This document shows positions 29,076 through 63,736 of a DNA stretch of 64,000 nucleotides, one piece after another. Source of the DNA: Mesodorylaimus sp. YZB2_4 (lineage: Eukaryota; Nematoda; Enoplea; Dorylaimida; Dorylaimidae); assembly GCA_030248295.1 (NCBI GenBank), contig JASANH010000705.1:37962-101961 (forward strand). Reading direction: 5' to 3'. Every line of letters begins with the position of its first letter. The stretch's first letter is position 1. Below the pieces are notes generated by a model that did no database searches, was not told where the DNA came from, and was given only the letters and a program-made list of their open reading frames with translations. The position numbers and the translations under genes are program-made.

Positions 29076-30489
29076 ATGTATCGCATCGTGTTGATCACTT
29101 TCGTGCTGCTAGCTGTAGCTCATAATGCTAACGCAGCTCCTAGTGGAAGCGGAAAAGGAAAGGGAAAAGGAAAAGGTATAACCGATGAGGACAGGAATAT
29201 TTTGAGGGTGAGTGATTCTTAAATTTTTTTCATCATCAAAATAGTGGAAAGATGGAGCTTCAGTCGATAAACCTGAGCAATGCCGGCAGTTAGGCAGAGG
29301 ACACTCACATACTGTACCCTCACAGGCATTTGAATTTTCAAATAAAAAATTATTATCAAGCAGCTGGACTTAAGGTTAAACTTTCATAGTGCTATCAAGC
29401 CTTGCAATAAGAAGCAGTAAAGAATTTAAGAACTCTTCTTTGCAGGAAAACTGCAAAAAGCAAGAAGGTGAATGTGATGCAAACAAGGAGGAATACAAAA
29501 AGAGACGAGATGAGGTGAAAGAAAATTTGATTGCGGAGTTGGAATTCGAAGAAGACCTGTCCGAGGAGGAAGCAACACAGAAAGTTGAAGAACGGCTGCA
29601 AAAGATCCAAGAACTTAAAGTCCTCCTCCACGCCGACATGGGAATTCCTGATATTCCACCTGCAGACGATGGCCTTTTTGGAGGCGATATAAAATTGACC
29701 ACAGAGCAAGCGCAAGCTTTTATTGACCAACTTAATAGCAGGTCAAAGCGATCCGCTTCGTATTTTTTTGAGCAGAACCCAGTTCGTCTTTGGAAAATGC
29801 CGATCCGCTATTGGGTGAATACCACCGGGTTCACTGCCGAAAAACAAAACGCCTTCCATGACGCGATGAACGCGATCACGCAGGCTGTGCCTTGCATCAC
29901 TTTTCAGAAAGATAATGCCCCTGTAAAAAAGGCGGATGGCGTCTCTCAAATCATATTTCGTCCTGATGTCGGCCAGGGATGTGGCGGGGGTTCGCCTTTG
30001 GGGCACACTGGCATCAACGAAATCGAGATTGTCGCAACCCCTGATTGGTGCTCGGGCGAGCTGTTAAAAGGTCTCATCATCCACGAAACCATTCACTCCT
30101 TGGGCGGCAACCACGAACAAACCCGCACTGATCGCGACGACTACGTCAAGGTCCTGTACGACAATATTCACCCTGGCTCCGCATACAACTACCATCTCTG
30201 GAACGGCAGCACGTCATACGGGGCCCCCTACGATTATAAATCCATCATGCACTACAAGCTGAATACCTTCAGCATGGGGGGGCCTACCATGCAAGTATTG
30301 AATGGCGGGGAGACCGAGTTGGGCGGCAGCGTGATGACCGCCAACGACATACTGCAATTGAAGCGCATGTACTGCTCGACTTGCCAAGATAAATACTCCG
30401 ACTGCGGTACTTTGGCTACCTGGCAAATATGCGACGATCAAGGTGTGGCCGACGATTGCCCTCGTTCATGCGGTCGTTGTGATCAATAG
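29076..30489 (+). CDS. Secreted astacin-family zinc metalloprotease with ShKT tail
   Basis: Coding exons 29,076-29,207 and 29,446-30,489 give 391 residues. A signal peptide (MYRIVLITFVLLAVAHNANA) is followed by a GKGKGKGKG stretch and an acidic, Lys/Glu-rich propeptide. The latter ends with the FxGD inhibitory motif (FGGD, about residue 122) and a furin-type site RSKR (143-146). The catalytic domain has HETIHSLGGNHEQTRTDRD (zinc site at 257-261) and SIMHY (Met-turn, 310-314). The family's GFxHE reads GGNHE. The C-terminus is a six-cysteine ShKT domain (about 357-389) after CSTC. Such enzymes are secreted zymogens that cut extracellular proteins in development, moulting or digestion. The upstream untranslated exon and promoter lie at 27.7 kb. 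A pseudogene copy precedes it. Confidence 0.9.
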
Positions 30490-47800: not shown

Positions 47801-50800
47801 CAAAAAATCTTGTTCTGCCCAGAAGATCCAAGTTTCGCAGGCGAAACATAGTGCATATGAAAACTCATGCCCAACCTTGCTGCTCAGAAATCTGAAAAAT
47901 ACTGACGTGCGAAAATACTTTCAAGGGCGGCGGACAAGGGACAATCAGCATCAATTTCTTTCGTCTATTTCGAGCATTACGATTGGTCAAACTACTGGCT
48001 CGTGGGGAAGGAATCCGCACCCTTCTTTGGACATTTCTGAAATCCTTCCAAGCCTTACCCTACGTTGTCTTATTGATAGCCTTGTTGTTCTTTATTTATG
48101 CTGTGATTGGGATGCAGGTAAGCTGCATTTGCTGAAAGATCACGCAAAGTAGTGGCTGATTTTTCACTCCTTTCAGATGTTTGGCAAGATAGCTCTGGAT
48201 GAGGATACGGAAATTAAAAGAAACAATAACTTCATGATGTTTCATTCCGCCTTGTTGGTTTTGTTCAGGTATGTGGCTAGGGTGCAGGCTTTGAGGACAG
48301 CGGAAAATAACACAAAAAGTTAGCTGGATGGAAGCCAGGTTGAGGTTGTGTTGAATGTTTCTGGTCTTTGATGGCAATCGTCGATTTTATCCTACAATAT
48401 TGTAGTTTGATACATGACACCCTTGCCTCCCTCCGGCATGGCCACTAAGCCTTTAAAAAAACCTAGGTAACTGAGTACAGGCTCTGTCCTACTGGGTATC
48501 ACGCGGGTTCTGAAGCAACACTTTGCCTGGTCAACGTCAGCACTTTGGCGTGCCCACCCCTTTTTCCTGTTTCTATGATACGGGCCCTGCATCACCTTTC
48601 ATTTTGTCTTTTCCTATTCTCGCATTCTCTTAGCAACAAGGCTTTTCCATTTTGTAGATGCGCCACTGGTGAAGCATGGCAAGAAATCATGCTCTCATGT
48701 TCAAATACGGAAAAAGTGAAGTGTTATGTGGAATCGGAAGGGGACCAGTGTGGCAACAATGTGGCCTACCCCTATTTCATCTCTTTCTTCATGCTAAGCT
48801 CATGCTTAATTATCAATTTGTTCGTGGCCGTCATTATGGACAATTTCGACTACCTAACTCGCGATTGGTCAATCCTCGGTCCGCATCATCTCGAAGAATT
48901 CGTTCGTCTTTGGTCAGAGTACGATCCTGATGCTAAAGGAAGAATCAAGCATTTGGATATCGTCACGTTGCTGAGAAAGATATCACCACCACTCGGATTT
49001 GGTAATTTCTGTCCCCATCGACTAGCTTGTAAGGTATGTGCCAATAGGCAGAAAATGGTTATTGCAGATCTGATGAGAACAGGAAAACGCGAATGCGGTG
49101 CTCCTTAGGTCACTGCTGTGTGGTTTTACAGTGTGAAGAAGTTATATCATGTCATACTTTATCCGTAGCCAAGCACTATACAGCGCACTCGAGGGCTAAG
49201 GAGCACATATTTGACAATTATTAGGTACCGAGGCGGGAGTCGAACCCTCCCCTGTAAGTTACGCTAGCATTTCAAGGCGGCATAACAAATGCTGCAGGAC
49301 AGCGCAAATGTCATTCATGAAATGATCTTTGATTACATCCGGCTAAGAAAGGCAGCGTTTCTTCCTGATTGTGTCCACAAAATATCACACAAATCCAACT
49401 TCCTGGGGCCAAATTTTACCCCTAAATAGTACTGTATACTTCATCTTCCATTTTCAGAGACTGGTATCCATGAACATGCACCTGAATCCCGATGGCACAG
49501 TGGCCTTCAATGCCACCCTCTTCGCCTTGGTCAGAACGAATTTACAGATATACACGAATGGTAAGCATGCATAGAAGACCATCAGTCGTTTAATTGGTTC
49601 GTTTTCAGAGAATTTGGGAAGTATCGACGAAGCCAATGCAAAACTGAGGATTGTCATTAAAAGTATTTGGAAAAGGACTCCAACGAAAATCTTGGACGAT
49701 GTGCTTCCTATTGACACAGGTAATACACAGTGTTCCTGGAGATGGGTATAATATTTTTTAAAGCAGAAGAGGGCTTACCATGTTAAAAATTGTGAGCAGT
49801 TTTTCTTGGGGAGGGGGGGCGGCGGTGAACATGATTATTTTAATGGTTTGGTACAACGAGCTTGTTACGTCATAGGATTAAATCTTTGGCACTTCACAAA
49901 AAGGTAGGATAACCGTAAGGGCAACCTGCAAGCAAGAAAGCAGGAAAGTCCGAGTGGTGTACTGCACAGTGGTAAAGGAGTGTTCCGATCATAGGCTTAT
50001 CTTTTTGGATCCCCTACTTGAGCCTTTTTTCAGTTGACCTAGCAAACCGTAGTGAAAACCTTGACTCGGCATAGGGCTATCACTGACTGACCAGAGGATG
50101 GCTTGATTGCCACAGCAACAATTCCACGCAGTCCACGGGCCCTTCGTGTTATAGTTTACTAGCCACCTCACCACAAGGGCCATGTGGACTCAATTCGGGG
50201 GGCAGCTACACGTGTCGGCCGTCGAAGAGGTTCTGACGGACCTGAGCCCGGAGTGCTCATAGAGCAGGCCCAGACCAACTCAAGACCAGTCATCTACTGA
50301 TGCCTGCAAACCAAACTGGACACTCGACCTCGTTCTCGCTCTCGTTTCGCGCCAGCCCAGGAGTGGTGGACCAGTTTTCTGAGCCAGAGTACCGATAGGG
50401 GAGAGACTAGGCCATGCCCATTACACTAACAAGCATTGTGGGGATCCTCACGGAAGATTCCATCTCTGTGTCCATCTGACGATGAGCACCTCCACACAGG
50501 CAGTATGTGAGCATCCTGGTGTAACCAGTCCTTGTAGGCGTAGGAGGGAGGCGGCCGACCGAAGTCGGCGGACAAGAACTCCGACTGGAGCAGGCAAGTC
50601 TTGCGTCTACCTACGGCTGAAACATCAACCCGAGGGGTTGACGTCTTTCAGCCAGGGGAGAGTATCGATTACTCACTCCCACTCGCCATGGCCTACCAGG
50701 AATGAGGGTTACACTGGATAGGGCATCAGTTTTGTCGGGCACTCCACTCTTGTGGACTAGCGTCGTCGGACAAGGGGGTGGGTTGTGATGTTCCCCGCTG

Positions 50801-55789: not shown

Positions 55790-56287
55790 TTATTGCCCAT
55801 ACCAAGCGTAATCATTCGAAAAGAAATCACCCAAGTCAAATTTATTAGAAAAACAGTCCTTGCTTCCTGACTCACTGATAGTGGGGGCGGCGTTGACGTC
55901 TGTTGACGATCCCCTTGAAATTGTGGCACTTTCTATCCCAGTCCCCATTGCCAGGCCAGGCAATCCTCGATCAGCCCATTGTATTACGAGTCTCAAATCG
56001 GCGATGTACTGATAAGCAGTTCGCAAAGTCTCAATTTTGCTCATTCTCTGATTGCCCTGTCCATCGTCGTCGGAGTAAGACGGTAGAATGTTGCGTAGCG
56101 TTTCCATGGCTTGGTTCAAGTTTTGCATTCGATTGCGTTCGCGATTATTGGCACGTAACCGACGAGCACGATGGAGGTGCTGCATAGATTCTGGATCCCT
56201 AGGGATGCGAATTCGTGGACGATACTTGCGTTTGGGTCGATCGGGAGCAGCTGCAGCTGATTGGGTTCGCATTGGAGGCGAAGACAT
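55790..56287 (-). CDS. NEUROG: Neurogenin-like bHLH transcription factor
   Basis: Single exon, 165 residues, ATG at 56,287. After a basic, proline-rich start (PKRKYRPRIRIP) comes the bHLH domain (about residues 40-103): basic region RRLRANNRERNRM, helix 1 QNLNQAMETLRNILPSY, an extended loop SDDDGQGNQRM, then helix 2 SKIETLRTAYQYIADL. ANxRERNRMxNLN and the tail RLVIQWADRGLPG point to the neurogenin/Tap group, not NeuroD or atonal. These nuclear factors bind E-boxes (CANNTG) as dimers with E-proteins and drive neural-precursor fate. The C-terminus is acidic/aromatic (DLGDFFSNDYAWYGQ), a plausible activation segment. The loop is about five residues longer than in vertebrate neurogenins. Confidence 0.8.
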   Translation of the reverse strand: MSSPPMRTQSAAAAPDRPKRKYRPRIRIPRDPESMQHLHRARRLRANNRERNRMQNLNQAMETLRNILPSYSDDDGQGNQRMSKIETLRTAYQYIADLRLVIQWADRGLPGLAMGTGIESATISRGSSTDVNAAPTISESGSKDCFSNKFDLGDFFSNDYAWYGQ

Positions 56288-56619
56288 TTGAGGTGCAAGA
56301 AAAAGGGTAAAAAGGAAGTAGGAATATTTATCGTTGACTTCAGATATTTGGACTAGAGGTCTATATGTAAACAGTGCACAATTTCGTGCACCTTATACTC
56401 CCCAAAACTAGCAGTCACCACTCTCACTCACGCAGCTCCACAAGAAGGAGAGATTCGAGAGTGCACGGAGCCTGATCGCCTTGTGGCCTGCCGGCCTGCT
56501 GGCTAAAAGCGGCCAGCCGACCTAGAGGCGGGGCTGTGAAAAATGACCGCGAACATAAGCTTGGCTACAGCGTGCGACTAACAACAGCTTGAGCGAGGCA
56601 TTTATTAAACTTCTTCAGC
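56288..56619. other. Short intergenic region between bHLH and channel genes
   Basis: Upstream of the bHLH start on the minus strand is GGAGTATAAGGTGCAC (about 56,386-56,402), a possible TATA box. It is not otherwise supported. Confidence 0.35.
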
Positions 56620-59600
56620 TTAGCTTGTAATAATCTTGAAAACGTATAGCATAGTGACAAAAAATAACGAGCTGGTGAAAGTCAGACAAAAACATATGAA
56701 ATCGCTCGTAGTCGTTGTTTCAGCGACCAATCTCATGAGTGACCGCTTATTTCGATCTCCTGTTTTTGACTTGTCGAAACATTGAGCAATTAGTTCGGCC
56801 ACGAGAAAACCGAATTCGAAAATGGTAATGATACAAAAGCCATTCAGATTGCCCGTCATGCCCGAAATGTCCGAGAGCAGAAACATAATCTGAAAGCAGG
56901 CAGTAGGGACCTTCTGCTATCAACATGGACAGGTGACCAGGGCACTTTTATGGCCAAAAACTGGGGTAGGCGCAGCGCTGTAGTATATTCCGTACATGCA
57001 GGACAGGACTGAGGAGATCATAGAGGCAGGACAGTAAGTTATCACCTCGCACCTACCTTTTTGCATCATCGTCCCCCCCCAAAAAAAACTGCAACGCATA
57101 TTTCTCATTCCCTCTATTACACAGGGCGTATGGAAAATATGAGTCTTACATCGATTGCTGGTTGCTCTGTAAATCGATACAGCTGAACCCGATCGAAATA
57201 GATCTCCAACAGAGCGTAGTGCTTTCTAAATCAAGGCACTGGAACTAACGCCAATGACACAATCAATTAATCAAATCATAACTTACGATAAGGCAGCGGC
57301 ACATGTGGTCTCTGATGTGCAGTTAACTCCCTGGAAAAAAGTTCAGTCCAGCCACAGACGTTGTCATCGCGAGACAGTATTGCATTTTAAAGAATTCACT
57401 GCCGACTTTCATGACTCATGCCAGATCACAACACGACTGCAGAGTTGAGATACTTTAAATTCTTACTCATATTCGTAAGTCGAACTTGAAATCCCATGTG
57501 TTGGGAACATGAGGATTTTAAGGCATACAGACTTTGGCAGATTTTAACGTGAAACGCGTTTGATGCGAGCAATTAAGTGGAAGGGGATCATTAACGAAGA
57601 ATGCACGAGCTAAATACAGCAGATTTTCTACCGTAGATCCATCTAGATCGTACAGTCCACGACATGTTATTATCTAATTTCATAGCTGTCCGAGTGGTTT
57701 TACTTCTGTGGACTCCCTAAAGATGGTGAAAAGGATCTCTGTTGGGGAGGCCTTGCGGCGAAATCTGCTGAGTTCACAACTATATTCTTATTTTTCGGAA
57801 TCTGGGTCCACAGTGCAATAGTGACACTCAGGGAAGACTATCCTACCTGCTATCACCTAACGATACTGGAAATATAGTTCGATAATCGATCACCAGCACT
57901 CACCTCGAGATCACTGCTCCTCAACACCGCAGTGCTGATCACGGCGTCGTAGAAAATACGCTCACACGGACTGTGGCAAGGACAATTGACTCTGGCGCTG
58001 TAATCTGGTATACAAGTGACGTTTTGATAATAGTCAGGACATCGTGCTGAAAATTAGCGGAGTAACAGTCCTCATCACTTGATGTGCAATCACGCCTACC
58101 TTGCTGATCAAAGCAAAAGCTGGCATTGGCAGGCTTGCCATATCTTGGGTCAGCGCAGTCGCACGACTTGATGACATAGTCTTGAATGCAGGATCTAATG
58201 CAACCCTATTTTAAAAATACTGGGAAACGTAAACCATAGGCAAGGAAACAACAGTGCATATGGTACGTACCTCAGTTGTGTAGATGCCGTCGTAGTAGTA
58301 AGTCAAGTCAGGGTATTTTGGGTCGTCGATTGAATCCACACACTTGTTACTTCCATAGCCAGTATTGAGTTTCTGTATGCTTGTCTGAAAATGTAGTAAG
58401 CTCCAGTGTGATAAATATTAGCTTATGAATACAGTACTTCTATGAGCCCTTTACAGCTCGTGACCGGCGGGGGTGGTCTCACTTGAAAAACTCCGACTGG
58501 AACAAGGCAAGTCTCGCGACTATACCCGCGACTGAAACATCAACCCGAGGGGTTGACGTCTCCCAGCCTGTGCTTCTTGTACAGTCTAGGAATAATCAAG
58601 CACAATTAGCCAATCTCACGCAGCCTTTTATGAATAGTATTCATCAAAAAAAGCAGATCTTAAAGTATTTTATCTCCTTATCAGTGCCTGGCTACTGCGC
58701 GGGCTAAGAATAATATTTCATACCATAGTGAGCGACATTGAGGTAACAGTGCCAGGCGCGATGTTTTGACCGAACGTCTCCACGAATGCGTGTTCTGATT
58801 GTGGGTGCACATGCACCTTGAAGCCAACAGTCTCCGTCGAGCACAGGTATTCATCTTGTTGTACTGACAGAAGGATTCGAAACCCTACGGTCAAAGAAGG
58901 CATACAGCATTAACCTGCCAAATACTTTACACATCCTAGAAAGTCTTGATGCCTTCTCGAAAACCACGCTCCAGTATAAAACGTGTTGGCCTGCAGATGA
59001 GATAGCGTATTCAGTTGCTTTGGTCTTTCACAGAAAGTTATGCATTCTCAGTTGGAGAAGCGGGCAAACGAAACAGAAAACTGAACTTATGCTTCACTCT
59101 TCTTTCTGCGACTGCCTGCGGGTTTCATAGCAGAGACCCCCGCTAACAAATACAGTTTCAAGTAAACTCGCTTGGTTTTCCTTTCCCGCGACCCATTGGT
59201 TTAATTCCCGCTCGAAGTCGTGCAGTGTAGGTAGTGCGGGGTACCCGTACTGCGACAGTATGTGGTAAAGAGCACTTATCGACATTCTGTCAGTCTTATT
59301 GCAGGTAGAGAGTGGGAAAGGAGACAAGCAGGGCTCATTGAGTAAATGCCATGTACCTACTGCAAGGGTCTTCAGGCTGCACAGGGAGTGAATTATAATT
59401 CTTCGTTGAATGCTAGCAGAAATGTATCGCACGTTCAAACCACCACCCTCCTCCTTCGCTTGAAGTATTCTTCTCATAGAGTTTCCCTACCTCAGACCCC
59501 ATACAGAGATTGAATTGTAGTAATTTCCCCTGTGATACTATTTGAGTATTCGCTGCCTGTATTCTTGCATGTGTTGTGGCTCCGTGTGGGACCCGTGCAG

Positions 59601-62600
59601 GTCACTCCACCTGATCCCCAGAGTGTGCAAAAGGTTTGCTTCAGTGCAGATTAAAATATAAAAATGCTGCAGCACAGTGCCGTGCAATCTTACCGCCATG
59701 GGGTCCACCTCTGGTCACATCGTATGCTTCTGACTCATTAGTATTAAAAGCGAAACAGTTGCCCATATAAGGATTGACAACGATATCAAAAGTCCTGGAA
59801 TAGTCAATTGTTTTTATTATTGCTCTAATAACAGGTTTTACTCACCGATCAATATCGCATTCGTGATTGGCATACATGCACATTTGCACAGCGGCACTCA
59901 GCTGATGACCAATGACCAAGCCATTTCTACTTTTGTTATAAGTTGAAAATAGACCTGGCATTGTGTTGGATATTGAAGCCGAACGTGATGCAGCATCAGA
60001 AAGAGTATCCTAAAAATTAAGCGGTAGCTAAGGAGTCAGGGGACATGTCAGGATTTTACGAACTGCTAGATCCAAAGCTTACCAACATCCCAGCTTCTTC
60101 CAAACTGGTTTCGAGCACGTCCACTGAAAACCGGTGACTAACGTACTGTGACTAACTTTAAAAGGTAACCATTACCAGGTGGTAAGCAATCTCGAATCCA
60201 GCAGTCTTTCACTTCATCCAGGATTTCACACAGACCTGATCCAACTTCGGAAGTGATCTTAGATCGATTTCGTTGCATAAATCCTTGATCACACGTGGTT
60301 GAACATTCAGACCAATCACTCCAATTTGTTAAAGTGCAGTCTGAAGGGAAATTGAAGATCTCAGTGTGCTCTGATCGTGATCCTGGGACAATTAATGGCT
60401 GCTGGCTGGTAATGGTGACATCAGTGCTAATCACTGATAAGGTGGTCGGTTTAGTGGAAAGTGATAGCGCATCATGGTCATCGCATGGCACAACGGTATC
60501 GCCTGCCAGTGCATTTGCGCACTTACTGAATGGACTTGAGTAGATGGGTCGCAAAAACATCAGACATGCCTCCTAGCGTGAGCCAGAAACGTCACCCAAA
60601 CGGCCAACTTGTACCAATCTTCGATTGCTTTTTATCAGGCGTCTATGTACCTAGGTAAAGCTACCAAGTACGGGTACACAGCCTTAAATGAGCCCAACGC
60701 TGTTACCCTTGCGCAGTATGACATGTGTAAGAGTTACTGTGCTACTTATTCAGTTTCCAATGTCCTCCTGCTGGTGTCTCCATGGTCACCCCAGACTGGC
60801 ATGAAAGTGTCGACAGTGAATTGGGTTTGGGGCATTTGAGGACGTATGCGCGCGACATTGGGAACAAGTACACCATTATTTGCAAAGCCGACGCCAAAAA
60901 GTGCTAGAAATTTAGCCTACCTTTAAAAAATCCTGTCAAGTCAGGTACATTTCTCGAGAGGTGTGAAATCTCACAGAGCAAATTCAGATCAGGCACTCAA
61001 GACTAGTTCTCATCCGATGTCTGCCATCAGACCAGTCACTCGACCTCGACCTCGCTCTCGGTCTCGTGCTGGCCCTGGCCCTGACTTAGGAGAGGCGGAC
61101 CGGTTCCCTGAACCAGTGCACACATAGGCCAGAGGGAATAGCACATGCCTAGTCCATGCCTATTACAGGTGCTTAGCCCTGGGCCCACCCAAAGTTTACT
61201 GGATTCGGGAAGTCACGCATTTGGCTTTGCCCAGCTCGACTGATTCCTACCATGCCCGCTGGTCTTCAATCAGACCTTCAACCTGTTCTGCGCAGTGTCT
61301 TCTCCCTTTCATCCTCATATGATTCTTGCCGATAATCTTACCTTTTTCCAGCGCGCAGGTTCCATTGTCCAATTGCTTCGTGAAGAAAATTAGTTCTCCC
61401 ATTTTCTTCCATCCCCAGTCCACAGTCAATCTGGTCTGCTCTGCATCGTTTCCAGACACGATCGTGTCACTCGGTGGGTCAAATGACCAGAAGAGAGGTC
61501 TCTCAACCACATTCGTCAAATTCGAATCATATGGCAAGTACATCAGGATGGATCTCAGTGTGTAATTGAACTTTTGGATCAGTTTATTCAGGTCAACATC
61601 GCCCAGGACCATGGAGATGTGGCTGTTGGACAATGAACGAGGGCTGAGCATTTCGTAAAGTGGGATAGTAAGTCCTGGTTTATGGATGGTAGCTGCGTAG
61701 ATTAGGCCATCCGATTCCAGTTTGCTGGTCTCGTTAATGCGAAAATTGCGAACCAGATTGTTGACACTGTTTGTGGTTATAATATGGACCCAGCCCGCAT
61801 TCAGTCGATGAACAATGGCGCAAGGGATGTTCGGAGTGGAGGCTTAAACAGGAGGGCCATAATTAGCGATGAAGATAGGAAAAGGCACGGATGAGAATGA
61901 CAGATTCAAGGAGCCGCGGCGGCTCAGTTGGTTAAGGCGTTGGTCCCGCACTGCTTGGGCCAGCAACCCTGACCGGGAGGGCGCAGTTCTGTTCCGACTT
62001 TGGGCGGCAGTTTAGTAAGTCCGTTCCCAGAGTGGGAACCGGTCTTCGACGGCAGTTTCGTAAGTCCGTCGCTGGCCTTGCACACCTGGCTCTGGGTGAC
62101 TCACCTGTAACCGCCATGTGGCGGACGCCAAACGAGTAGAGAATCAGGAAACTGGTTCGCGAACACCAGTCGGGACGGTCCTTCCCTTCTCGCCCGGTAT
62201 CATCCTGGAACGCTGGTGCTATCACAGGATGCCCTCGTGTGGAGGTGGTACTAGTGGAGACACACAGAGGGAAGCTGCCGTGAGAGCTGCTCAACCCCGG
62301 CCTCGCTTATCATAATATGACTGCTGGCTGGCTATAGGCAAAACGGGGGAAATCCCGTAGGGAACTGGGGCGTCCCAAGACTCAACCCACAAAAATTTTA
62401 AAAAATACAGATTAAAGTTCGAAAAAGTGGCATCATACGCGCCGGTATACTGTATGGCACGATCAAGGACACTACGTCACCCACTGTCCATGTAGTGCAA
62501 GAGAAAGCTTTTGTGCGTTTAGAACGCAAATTTTGGCGGGAAACTAAGTTTTCAAATTAGCGGCAGACAACACGTAGATCATACCCACAATGACTAACCC

Positions 62601-63736
62601 GAAGTCAGTAGGTTTATTGATTTGCCAACAGCACAGACGACTTACTATCGAGAGTGCCTTGCTGGCACACGGGAGTCAATGTCGGTGTGATATCACCACT
62701 ATGAACATTGATCCATCCATTATCACTCCTCACAACGCACGATCTTGCAGGGTCTCGATGAGGGGCTCGCTGACTGCCATTTTCCCATTTCACAAAACCA
62801 GTTGGTGCGCCCGAATCTACCCACGTTGTCTGTTCGCCACTGGCATTGATGTAAACCTCGATGCCCAGTGCAATGACCAAATTGGGATGGCGCTTTTTCC
62901 TAGAATTAAAAATCTCATGTAGTGCTGTACGTAGTGTGTGCAGCCATGGTGACATCGGGCTCGCTGACATGGAAAGAGCGTTTGTGATGCCGATTTAGGT
63001 TGGAAAGATAATGTGTGTAAAGTGCTAGAATGTCACGTGTTGTTGCTGTGATTAGTGATAAGATTAGTAACAGTCGCCGTCTGTGACGCGACTGGTTTAG
63101 TATCATGGAATGTCGGGTCACAAGAGGAGAGTGAGTGCTTCTGCTCCACCACTCACTCTCCTCCTGCTACTCGGTTTGTGAACACGTGGGGCTAGAAGTA
63201 GAAGGTGGTGCATGAATACGGTATGCACACTCGATGTTGGAAGGCGTAACATTATAAATCTCGAAACCATCATCAGCGGGAGAAGCAGATGTTAAAAAGC
63301 TAATTTCGGGCAGTTTTTACAGAACCGCCTAAAATGTGGTGAAAAAATGTGCCTTGTGATGATCACAAAAATACACATCAGATTGTATTCTCCTTCTCGC
63401 AAGCTCCTTGTCTGGTGCAGGAACACATAGAATATGACGTTTTGTTTGGCGGTGTAACTATATACGGACATCAGAGCATGACAGTGTAACTTACATGGCT
63501 TCATCAAAAGCATCATAATCTCGACCATTCAAAAATCCAGGCAGTCTGGCCTTTCGAAACGCACAGGCGATACGCGCATCATCGCAGTTGGTCAGAGTGT
63601 CCCCAATCACCAAATAACAATAATCCTCGATCTGAATCCAATCCTTGGCACATTGGCCATGGATCAGGCTCAGTTGGAGCAGATTACAGGCAAGAGCCAG
63701 GAGGAAAAACCAGCTCGGAAGGGAGCGAAAGTTCAT
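56620..63736 (-). CDS. C-type lectin / TSP1 / DEG-ENaC channel fusion protein
   Basis: Thirteen minus-strand exons with matching phases: 63495-63736, 62646-62899, 61342-61842, 60176-60502, 60083-60123, 59846-60009, 59694-59794, 58724-58884, 58271-58384, 58100-58205, 57904-58046, 57150-57221, 56620-56889. They total 2,496 bases (831 residues). Residues 1-27 are a signal peptide (LPSWFFLLALACNLLQLSL). Residues 28-165 form a C-type lectin domain (CAKDWIQIEDYCY, NCDDARIACAF, W.D....GFVKWENG, SCVV, PVC) without a calcium EPN motif. An unrecognised domain follows (166-332), then a Thr/Ser stretch and TSP1 (NWSDWSECSTTCDQG, CWIRDC; to about 440). From about 455 the DEG/ENaC ectodomain is clear: IGHQLSAAVQMC, MGNCFAFN, QQDEYL, APGTVTS, GCIRSCIQDYVIKSCDCADP, CPCHSPCEERIFYD. 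The second transmembrane helix follows (about 743-775). No first helix was found. DEG/ENaC proteins are trimeric sodium channels. Nematode EGAS proteins also fuse extracellular modules to this domain. Confidence 0.78.
58478..58566 (+). mobile_element. MITE-like repeat family M, fragment
   Basis: AACTCCGACTGGAACAAGGC, ACTGAAACATCAACCCGAGG and GGTTGACGTCTCCCAGCC match the centre of family M. It lies in an intron of the lectin-channel gene. Confidence 0.55.
60503..61341. other. Intron of the lectin-channel gene with repeat
   Basis: Intron between the unrecognised domain and the TSP1 exon. Contains the repeat at 61,000-61,170. A plus-strand frame at 60,609-60,839 has a few spaced cysteines but no supported exon. 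Confidence 0.5.
61000..61170. repeat. Dispersed repeat shared with 50.3 kb, copy 2
   Basis: Second copy of the CACTCGACCTCG...CGCTCTCG block (see 50,275-50,430), ending near GCACATGCCTAGTCCATGCC. Confidence 0.5.
61912..62345 (+). repeat. tRNA-derived SINE family 1, near full-length
   Basis: Begins GGAGCCGCGGCGGCTCAGTT, with GGCTCAGTTGGTTAAGGCG as a strong tRNA A-box region. It then follows the same body as the minus-strand copy at 25,530-26,015 through CCAGTCGGGA, GGTATCATCCTGG, GATGCCCTCGTGTGGAGG and TCATAATATGA. It lies in an intron of the lectin-channel gene, antisense to it. Confidence 0.7.

Follow-up and report, generated by a model that had tools for sequence, protein, structure and literature searches.

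Subunits of the DEG/ENaC family (PF00858; ASIC, ENaC and degenerin chains) have two membrane helices, the first (TM1) coming at the start, and both ends of the chain are cytosolic. Among their nematode relatives, the EGAS proteins carry an extracellular add-on of EGF repeats. Here we describe a gene of the nematode Mesodorylaimus sp. YZB2_4, located in a stretch of 64,000 nucleotides (the window; contig JASANH010000705.1 of assembly GCA_030248295.1, positions 37,962 to 101,961; C305 below), in which a C-type-lectin-like domain (CTLD), an unassigned domain (E3) and a TSP1 repeat are fused, behind a predicted signal peptide, to a DEG/ENaC half. The gene shares with the family the part from the finger to the second helix (TM2), with its cysteine-rich segments, but a predicted signal peptide and the head stand in place of the cytosolic N-terminal tail and TM1, the selectivity filter position reads GFC (GFD in a paralog), and an extra helix follows TM2. 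It is like the EGAS proteins in bearing an extracellular add-on, whereas the add-on consists of CTLD and TSP1 instead of EGF repeats (no EGF family was among the Pfam matches of either fusion protein). A first-pass annotation of this DNA had known of no lectin-TSP1-DEG/ENaC protein, and none was found in the literature on lectin or TSP1 together with ENaC or ASC, a coverage outside which most subscription papers lie.

The gene lies on the minus strand from 63736 to 56620. Fourteen exons separated by GT-AG introns keep a single open frame of 848 codons with the stop, encoding 847 aa. The start, the stop, the single frame and the intron borders of the first-pass annotation are retained in this model; its count of 13 exons and 832 codons is not. 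The signal peptide is predicted at residues 1-27, with a hydrophobic core at 7-25 (hydropathy and inspection by eye). The CTLD spans approximately residues 28-161 and matched LY75/DEC-205 by phmmer (E 8e-5), and the TSP1 repeat (residues 388-438, six cysteines) scored 24.2 bits against Pfam TSP_1 (cut-off 21.6). The Pfam ASC match extends over residues 482-786 (E 5.7e-45, 154.6 bits, cut-off 23.6), and residues 543-798 matched ENaC beta and alpha and ASIC1/2 chains by phmmer, with a best E of 1.6e-19.

In the genome searched (145 Mb, 1067 contigs), the spliced protein was compared by tblastn with 28 loci, and a single one, L027 on contig C17, had the parts in order; 20 of the 28 had been picked by eye around lone TSP1 exons, and C17 was one of these 20. 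The C17 gene has the same architecture in 14 exons and 806 aa, with 39% identity over 850 columns. Intron phases are equal at all 13 introns and the intron columns identical at 10 of them; the other three, next to length differences, lie 54, 4 and 10 columns apart. A micro-exon of 47 nt in C17 matches the 41-nt exon of the window (60123-60083) in place and phase. The C17 protein passes Pfam Lectin_C (24.5 bits, cut-off 22.6), TSP_1 (31.3, cut-off 21.6), TSP1_spondin (47.5, cut-off 41) and ASC (161.9, cut-off 23.6), and in both proteins the ASC ectodomain, cysteine-rich segments included, runs into TM2. When the genome was searched with exon 3 and with exon 14, each query returned six matches at E<=1, with strong ones only at C305, the contig of the query, and at C17. 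Thus, the architecture for which the first-pass annotation had advised a search is present a second time in the organism's own genome; elsewhere, none of 7994 candidates scored against the full protein reached E<=0.001. With the Pfam and phmmer matches and the same arrangement in C17, the fusion of CTLD, unassigned domain, TSP1 and DEG/ENaC behind a predicted signal peptide is genuine, as first proposed. Several lone TSP1 exons per contig were also seen on C83, C39, C62 and C589, as if one gene family were repeated; no CTLD-E3-ENaC match was obtained by tblastn at the loci fetched from these four contigs.

Over 773 codon pairs between the window and C17 genes, the proportion of nonsynonymous differences (pN) was 0.39 and that of synonymous differences (pS) 0.84, the latter saturated. 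Because pN is well below pS, both genes are under constraint, extra helix included. By part, the pN/pS values were 0.26/0.75 in TM2 and 0.33/0.90 in the DEG/ENaC ectodomain, where pN was lowest, 0.40/0.95 in the tail after TM2, 0.44/0.78 in E3, 0.45/0.81 in the signal peptide plus CTLD and 0.49/0.71 in TSP1.

Ca2+-dependent sugar-binding C-type lectins are marked by an EPN or QPD motif together with WND. Neither was found in residues 1-170 of the window or C17 protein, and WIN and WKN stand where WND would be expected; sugar binding is therefore unlikely on these motifs, and the sugar sensing proposed in the first-pass annotation received no support. Elsewhere in the genome, a dense array of C-type lectin matches occupies C21:899552-951506.

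The DEG/ENaC half is incomplete in a manner that the first-pass annotation had overlooked. The ASC matches cover only profile positions 139-454 in the window protein and 138-453 in C17, so that the first 138 positions, TM1 included, are absent from the window match. A cytosolic N terminus with an HG motif and TM1 ahead of the ectodomain was not found in either exon model: HG occurs at residue 26 (in the signal peptide) and 542 of the window protein and at 680 of C17, none being where TM1 would require one. The sequence of the first palm strand, FPAVTICN, is absent from both proteins by pattern. Since a looser form of the pattern hit only 5 of the 10 DEG/ENaC loci scanned (L001, L002, L004, C29 and C1) and is not decisive alone, it is the late start of the Pfam match, more than the pattern, by which this strand is apparently missing. 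Two other DEG/ENaC genes of the genome, C29 and C1, keep HG, TM1 and FPAVT[IV]CN (FPAVTVCN in both). At the GxS position, C1 and C29 have GFS and C206 has GIC; a GxS selectivity filter in TM2 was not found in the window protein (GFC) or in C17 (GFD). Judged by its sequence, the product is DEG/ENaC-derived, yet with the TM1 part and the GxS filter lacking it is not an ordinary DEG/ENaC channel subunit.

The genome as a whole holds a very large DEG/ENaC set, with at least 114 ASC matches (93 of 1085 candidates scored), several of them in uninterrupted frames of 450-600 codons. One DEG/ENaC gene, at C206:62860-70983 (L051, L050 and L037), has Ser/Thr-rich mucin-like frames of 670 and 234 aa before the finger exon; TM1 or FPAVTICN was not seen in the part read, which is without the gene start, and its TM2 is followed by a five-residue tail.

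A second hydrophobic helix (residues 823-841) follows TM2 and a K/R-containing loop, the protein ending at 847; this helix, likewise absent from the first-pass annotation, is present in both copies. All N-X-S/T sequons lie before TM2 (13 of 13 in the window protein, 16 of 16 in C17), and the loop past TM2 has 6 K/R vs 4 D/E in the window protein and 10 vs 3 in C17. Taken with the predicted signal peptide, these charges and sequons suggest an N terminus outside, TM2 running out-to-in and the last helix in-to-out, that is, the canonical directions in reversed order. As a control for the tail helix, 11 other DEG/ENaC loci were scanned, and TM2 was caught by pattern in three of them (C206, C1 and C29). 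No helix after TM2 was found in C206 or in C1 (53-residue tail, no hydrophobic peak), and the putative coding frame of C29 gave a weak hydrophobic peak of 1.15 in that place; by eye, the C-terminal open frame of L001 has no helix after TM2.

In number and predicted direction the two helices equal the canonical pair, which would fit an autonomous permuted channel with the C-terminal helix in the place of TM1, the order of the helices reversed and a working pore. A 13-mer ahead of the last helix (MRLVAETTTTSDF / VRLLADDTTMTDF) also resembles segments that precede TM1 (FRDFCEETTAHGF). Against three such segments it ranks first among 761 aligned positions, narrowly (20.0, next 19.7) and with the motif chosen post hoc. 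The whole-stretch alignment to TM1 was no better than that of shuffles (148/300 and 244/300 reached the observed score), the spacer between motif and helix is by eye a dozen or more residues shorter than the ordinary TM1 spacer, the filter is altered and the first palm strand apparently missing. The last helix as a displaced TM1 was thus not upheld by sequence and is suggestive only. We consider the autonomous permuted channel quite unlikely. A permuted-topology DEG/ENaC channel in the wider sense, homomeric or mixed, in which the post-TM2 helix would replace TM1 and matrix or ligand would pull the gate through a lectin/TSP1 head held outside, is unlikely as well.

The origin of the head can be followed through E3, a 160-aa domain at window residues 166-333 without a Pfam match. 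Seven candidate copies were aligned, from the window, C17, C177 (twice), C59, C161 and, in part, C215. At C59 and in one of the C177 copies, E3 is immediately preceded by halves of Pfam Lectin_C; in the second C177 copy and at C161 it is preceded, by eye, by CTLD-like frames, and at C161 six TSP1 matches follow. The C177, C59 and C161 genes thus share the CTLD-E3 order, with TSP1 repeats next at C161, but have no DEG/ENaC part in the stretches read. CTLD-E3(-TSP1) therefore seems, from these arrangements, to be an extracellular module that existed in this genome without a channel. An E3 profile gave one metagenome protein, P0001 (E 7.2e-30), which is 56% identical to the C161 copy, itself a row of the profile; as P0001 carries an E3 of the C161 type, the domain is suggested not to be private to this genome. 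By eye, the channel half shares one exon break with C1 and C206, ahead of G-[FL]R-LL, and another with C1, ahead of GCIRSC. An economical story would be that a DEG/ENaC subunit gene became fused behind a pre-existing secreted CTLD-E3-TSP1 module, with the cut between first palm strand and finger, and that the product was then duplicated. The junction would have removed the cytosolic N-terminal tail, TM1 and, judging by where the profile match starts, the first palm strand.

The AlphaFold2 (AF2) model of E3 had a pLDDT of 30.9 from two sequences, which is useless, and 75.7 from seven. Foldseek with the E3 model gave 52 matches at E<=10 and none at E<=0.001, and a PDB search by sequence found none. 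In fold, PDB 9uj0 (the Aegerolysin-L pore, C-terminal domain) was also considered for E3. DUF5648 (PF18885) was considered for its three-repeat look by eye, but E3 gave no match to the profile. Elsewhere in the genome, ten DUF5648 matches were obtained (12 candidates scored), and 2 of 14 control genomes matched, both bacteria; hhalign of the E3 profile with one of the ten gave a probability of 1.8%, and PDB searches lent no support to the assignment.

Several observations weigh against the locus as described above. The CTLD of the window protein was not reported as Lectin_C by Pfam; its match there was to UL45, a C-type-lectin-like family, at 17.7 bits, below the cut-off of 27, and it lacks one cysteine present in the C17 CTLD. 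In the Pfam search of the joined protein, which the first-pass annotation had advised, TSP_1 and ASC were above cut-off in the window copy, while Lectin_C passed in C17 only. Exon 6 of C17 has a weak donor, GTCAGC. The sequence kinship of E3 is weak, both from the window query (E 0.007 for C59, 0.03 for C215, 0.05 for C177 and 0.1 for C161) and in the reverse search from C177 (E 0.005 for C17 and 0.05 for C305), although the position of a CTLD before E3 supports it. The exon 14 pair has no relatives outside the genome (11 candidates, none at E<=1), and its conservation is therefore shown between paralogs only.

The hexamer AATAAA occurs twice between exons 2 and 4, at 62618 in intron 2 and at 61588 inside exon 3, and thus in the interval (62.6-60.5 kb) where, according to the first-pass annotation, a polyA site would speak for two separate genes and against the fusion. 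Two adjacent genes wrongly joined would account for these hexamers and for the length of window introns 2 and 3 (803 and 839 nt). The full fusion is nonetheless kept in C17, where the join is identical, the intron phases equal and the introns compact; chance and two misjoined genes are therefore excluded, and the two-gene model, in substance refuted by C17, was rejected as highly improbable. The hexamer at 62618 overlaps the stop that exon 2 reaches when its donor is unused, and from this a short secreted CTLD isoform of the window gene is possible. The 55-nt intron 2 of C17 has no such hexamer by eye.

Hydrophobic stretches off the exon model likewise count against the absence of TM1. In the window they are weak at 63073 (intron 1) and 62609 (intron 2), and a strong one (2.55) at 59792 overlaps exon 7 in a different frame, behind two stops; in C17, stretches of 1.64 and 1.68, both preceded by a stop, straddle introns 4 and 6. 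They could be taken to mean an ordinary DEG/ENaC channel whose TM1 lies undetected in an alternative exon or start. Both copies have the predicted signal peptide and extracellular head, and in C17 the five introns between exons 1 and 6 measure 57, 55, 144, 56 and 59 nt. As these introns are short and no stretch within the 144-nt one exceeds 1.6 in hydrophobicity, they conceal no TM1 exon. With the hydrophobicity scans and the C17 intron sizes, a hidden TM1 was rejected and is, to our judgement, hardly credible.

We place about even confidence in the product being a matrix- or ligand-tethered, DEG/ENaC-derived accessory subunit. The signal peptide would take it into the endoplasmic reticulum, so that the two heads (lectin-like and TSP1) come to lie outside together with most of the DEG/ENaC ectodomain; TM2 would cross into the cytosol and the C-terminal helix return through the membrane in both copies. 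More tentatively, the DEG/ENaC ectodomain could let the protein trimerise, by itself or together with ordinary subunits of the family, and binding to the heads, or pull on them, might then affect the gate or how the complex assembles. The accessory role is inferred. So is the term channel subunit, given the loss of TM1, the altered filter and the additional C-terminal helix; with GFC or GFD and without the TM1 part, channel function may have been lost.

The same changes are in line with a receptor that is not a channel, in which the DEG/ENaC ectodomain and the C-terminal helices would only anchor and oligomerise a lectin/TSP1 adhesion head, with no ion flow and no channel partners. The C206 gene, which has a mucin-like stretch ahead of the finger and ends with only TM2 and a short tail, could be a parallel; TM1 was not seen in the part read but may lie upstream of that part. 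Oocytes expressing C. elegans EGAS-1 to -4, the nearest named analogues, showed no current beyond that of water controls, and the same held for 15 other listed constructs of the family (PMC10424705); the authors allow that the EGAS result may reflect missing partners, and it decides little for the window gene. Against the receptor, TM2 and the ectodomain have a lower pN than an anchor should require, and both copies retain the second helix. The receptor is a tentative but close second choice. The accessory subunit is favoured over it and over the permuted channel because ectodomain and TM2 change least while TM1 and the filter are non-canonical.

The features of the gene are collected in Table 1.

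Table 1. Exons and other features of the fusion gene in the window (positions in the 64,000-nucleotide stretch).
Feature	Position	Strand	Basis
Exon 1: predicted signal peptide (~residues 1-27), followed by first half of CTLD	63495..63736	-	hydrophobic start; phmmer
Exon 2: C half of CTLD	62646..62899	-	phmmer; C17 exon 2
Exon 3: E3 domain, without Pfam match; candidate copies after CTLD elsewhere in genome	61342..61842	-	AF2 model; VIA-align
Exon 4: Ser/Thr-rich linker and TSP1 repeat (residues 388-438)	60176..60502	-	Pfam TSP_1
Exon 5: 41-nt micro-exon, link to DEG/ENaC finger	60083..60123	-	C17 47-nt exon, same place and phase
Exon 6: DEG/ENaC finger exon; Pfam ASC match begins here, residue 482	59846..60009	-	
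Exon 7: DEG/ENaC ectodomain	59694..59794	-	tblastn
Exon 8: DEG/ENaC ectodomain	58724..58884	-	Pfam ASC E 1.2e-7, 31.6 bits (cut-off 23.6), open frame of exon 8 alone
Exon 9: DEG/ENaC ectodomain	58271..58384	-	C17 alignment
Exon 10: cysteine-rich DEG/ENaC segment	58100..58205	-	Pfam ASC E 7.4e-5, 22.4 bits (just under cut-off), open frame
Exon 11: DEG/ENaC ectodomain, CPCHSPC segment	57904..58046	-	phmmer
Exon 12: 44-nt exon, DEG/ENaC ectodomain	57287..57330	-	
Exon 13: final ectodomain segment ahead of TM2	57150..57225	-	
Exon 14: TM2, K/R-containing loop, second hydrophobic helix, stop	56620..56889	-	
TM2 core, residues 775-793; starts with GFC (775-777) at GxS filter position	56785..56841	-	
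Second hydrophobic helix, residues 823-841	56641..56697	-	hydropathy
AATAAA directly past stop codon, likely gene end	56601..56606	-	
AATAAA in intron 2; possible short secreted CTLD form	62613..62618	-	

Within intron 2, the stretch 61905-62386 resembles a tRNA-derived repeat by eye (GGCTCAGTTGGTTAAGGCG, plus strand); ARAGORN found no tRNA in 60500-63500. Other genes recognised by eye in the window are an astacin-type protease with a ShK-like end (29380-30489), part of a voltage-gated calcium channel (48467-49108) and, just downstream of the fusion gene, a bHLH gene (55790-56392). Col_cuticle_N, a mark of nematode cuticle collagen, had 133 matches in the genome (137 candidates scored). The SL1 RNA family had 0 matches in the genome, and the control genomes gave no match either.

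The fusion gene may thus encode either a channel with rearranged parts or a receptor that was made out of one. A maintained gene pair without TM1, with the N terminus predicted outside, an adhesion head and a helix after TM2, would test how much of the fold trimerisation and conduction need. The pair would also offer a covalent version of the proposed touch-channel matrix tether, and its existence makes this idea testable by expression and electrophysiology.

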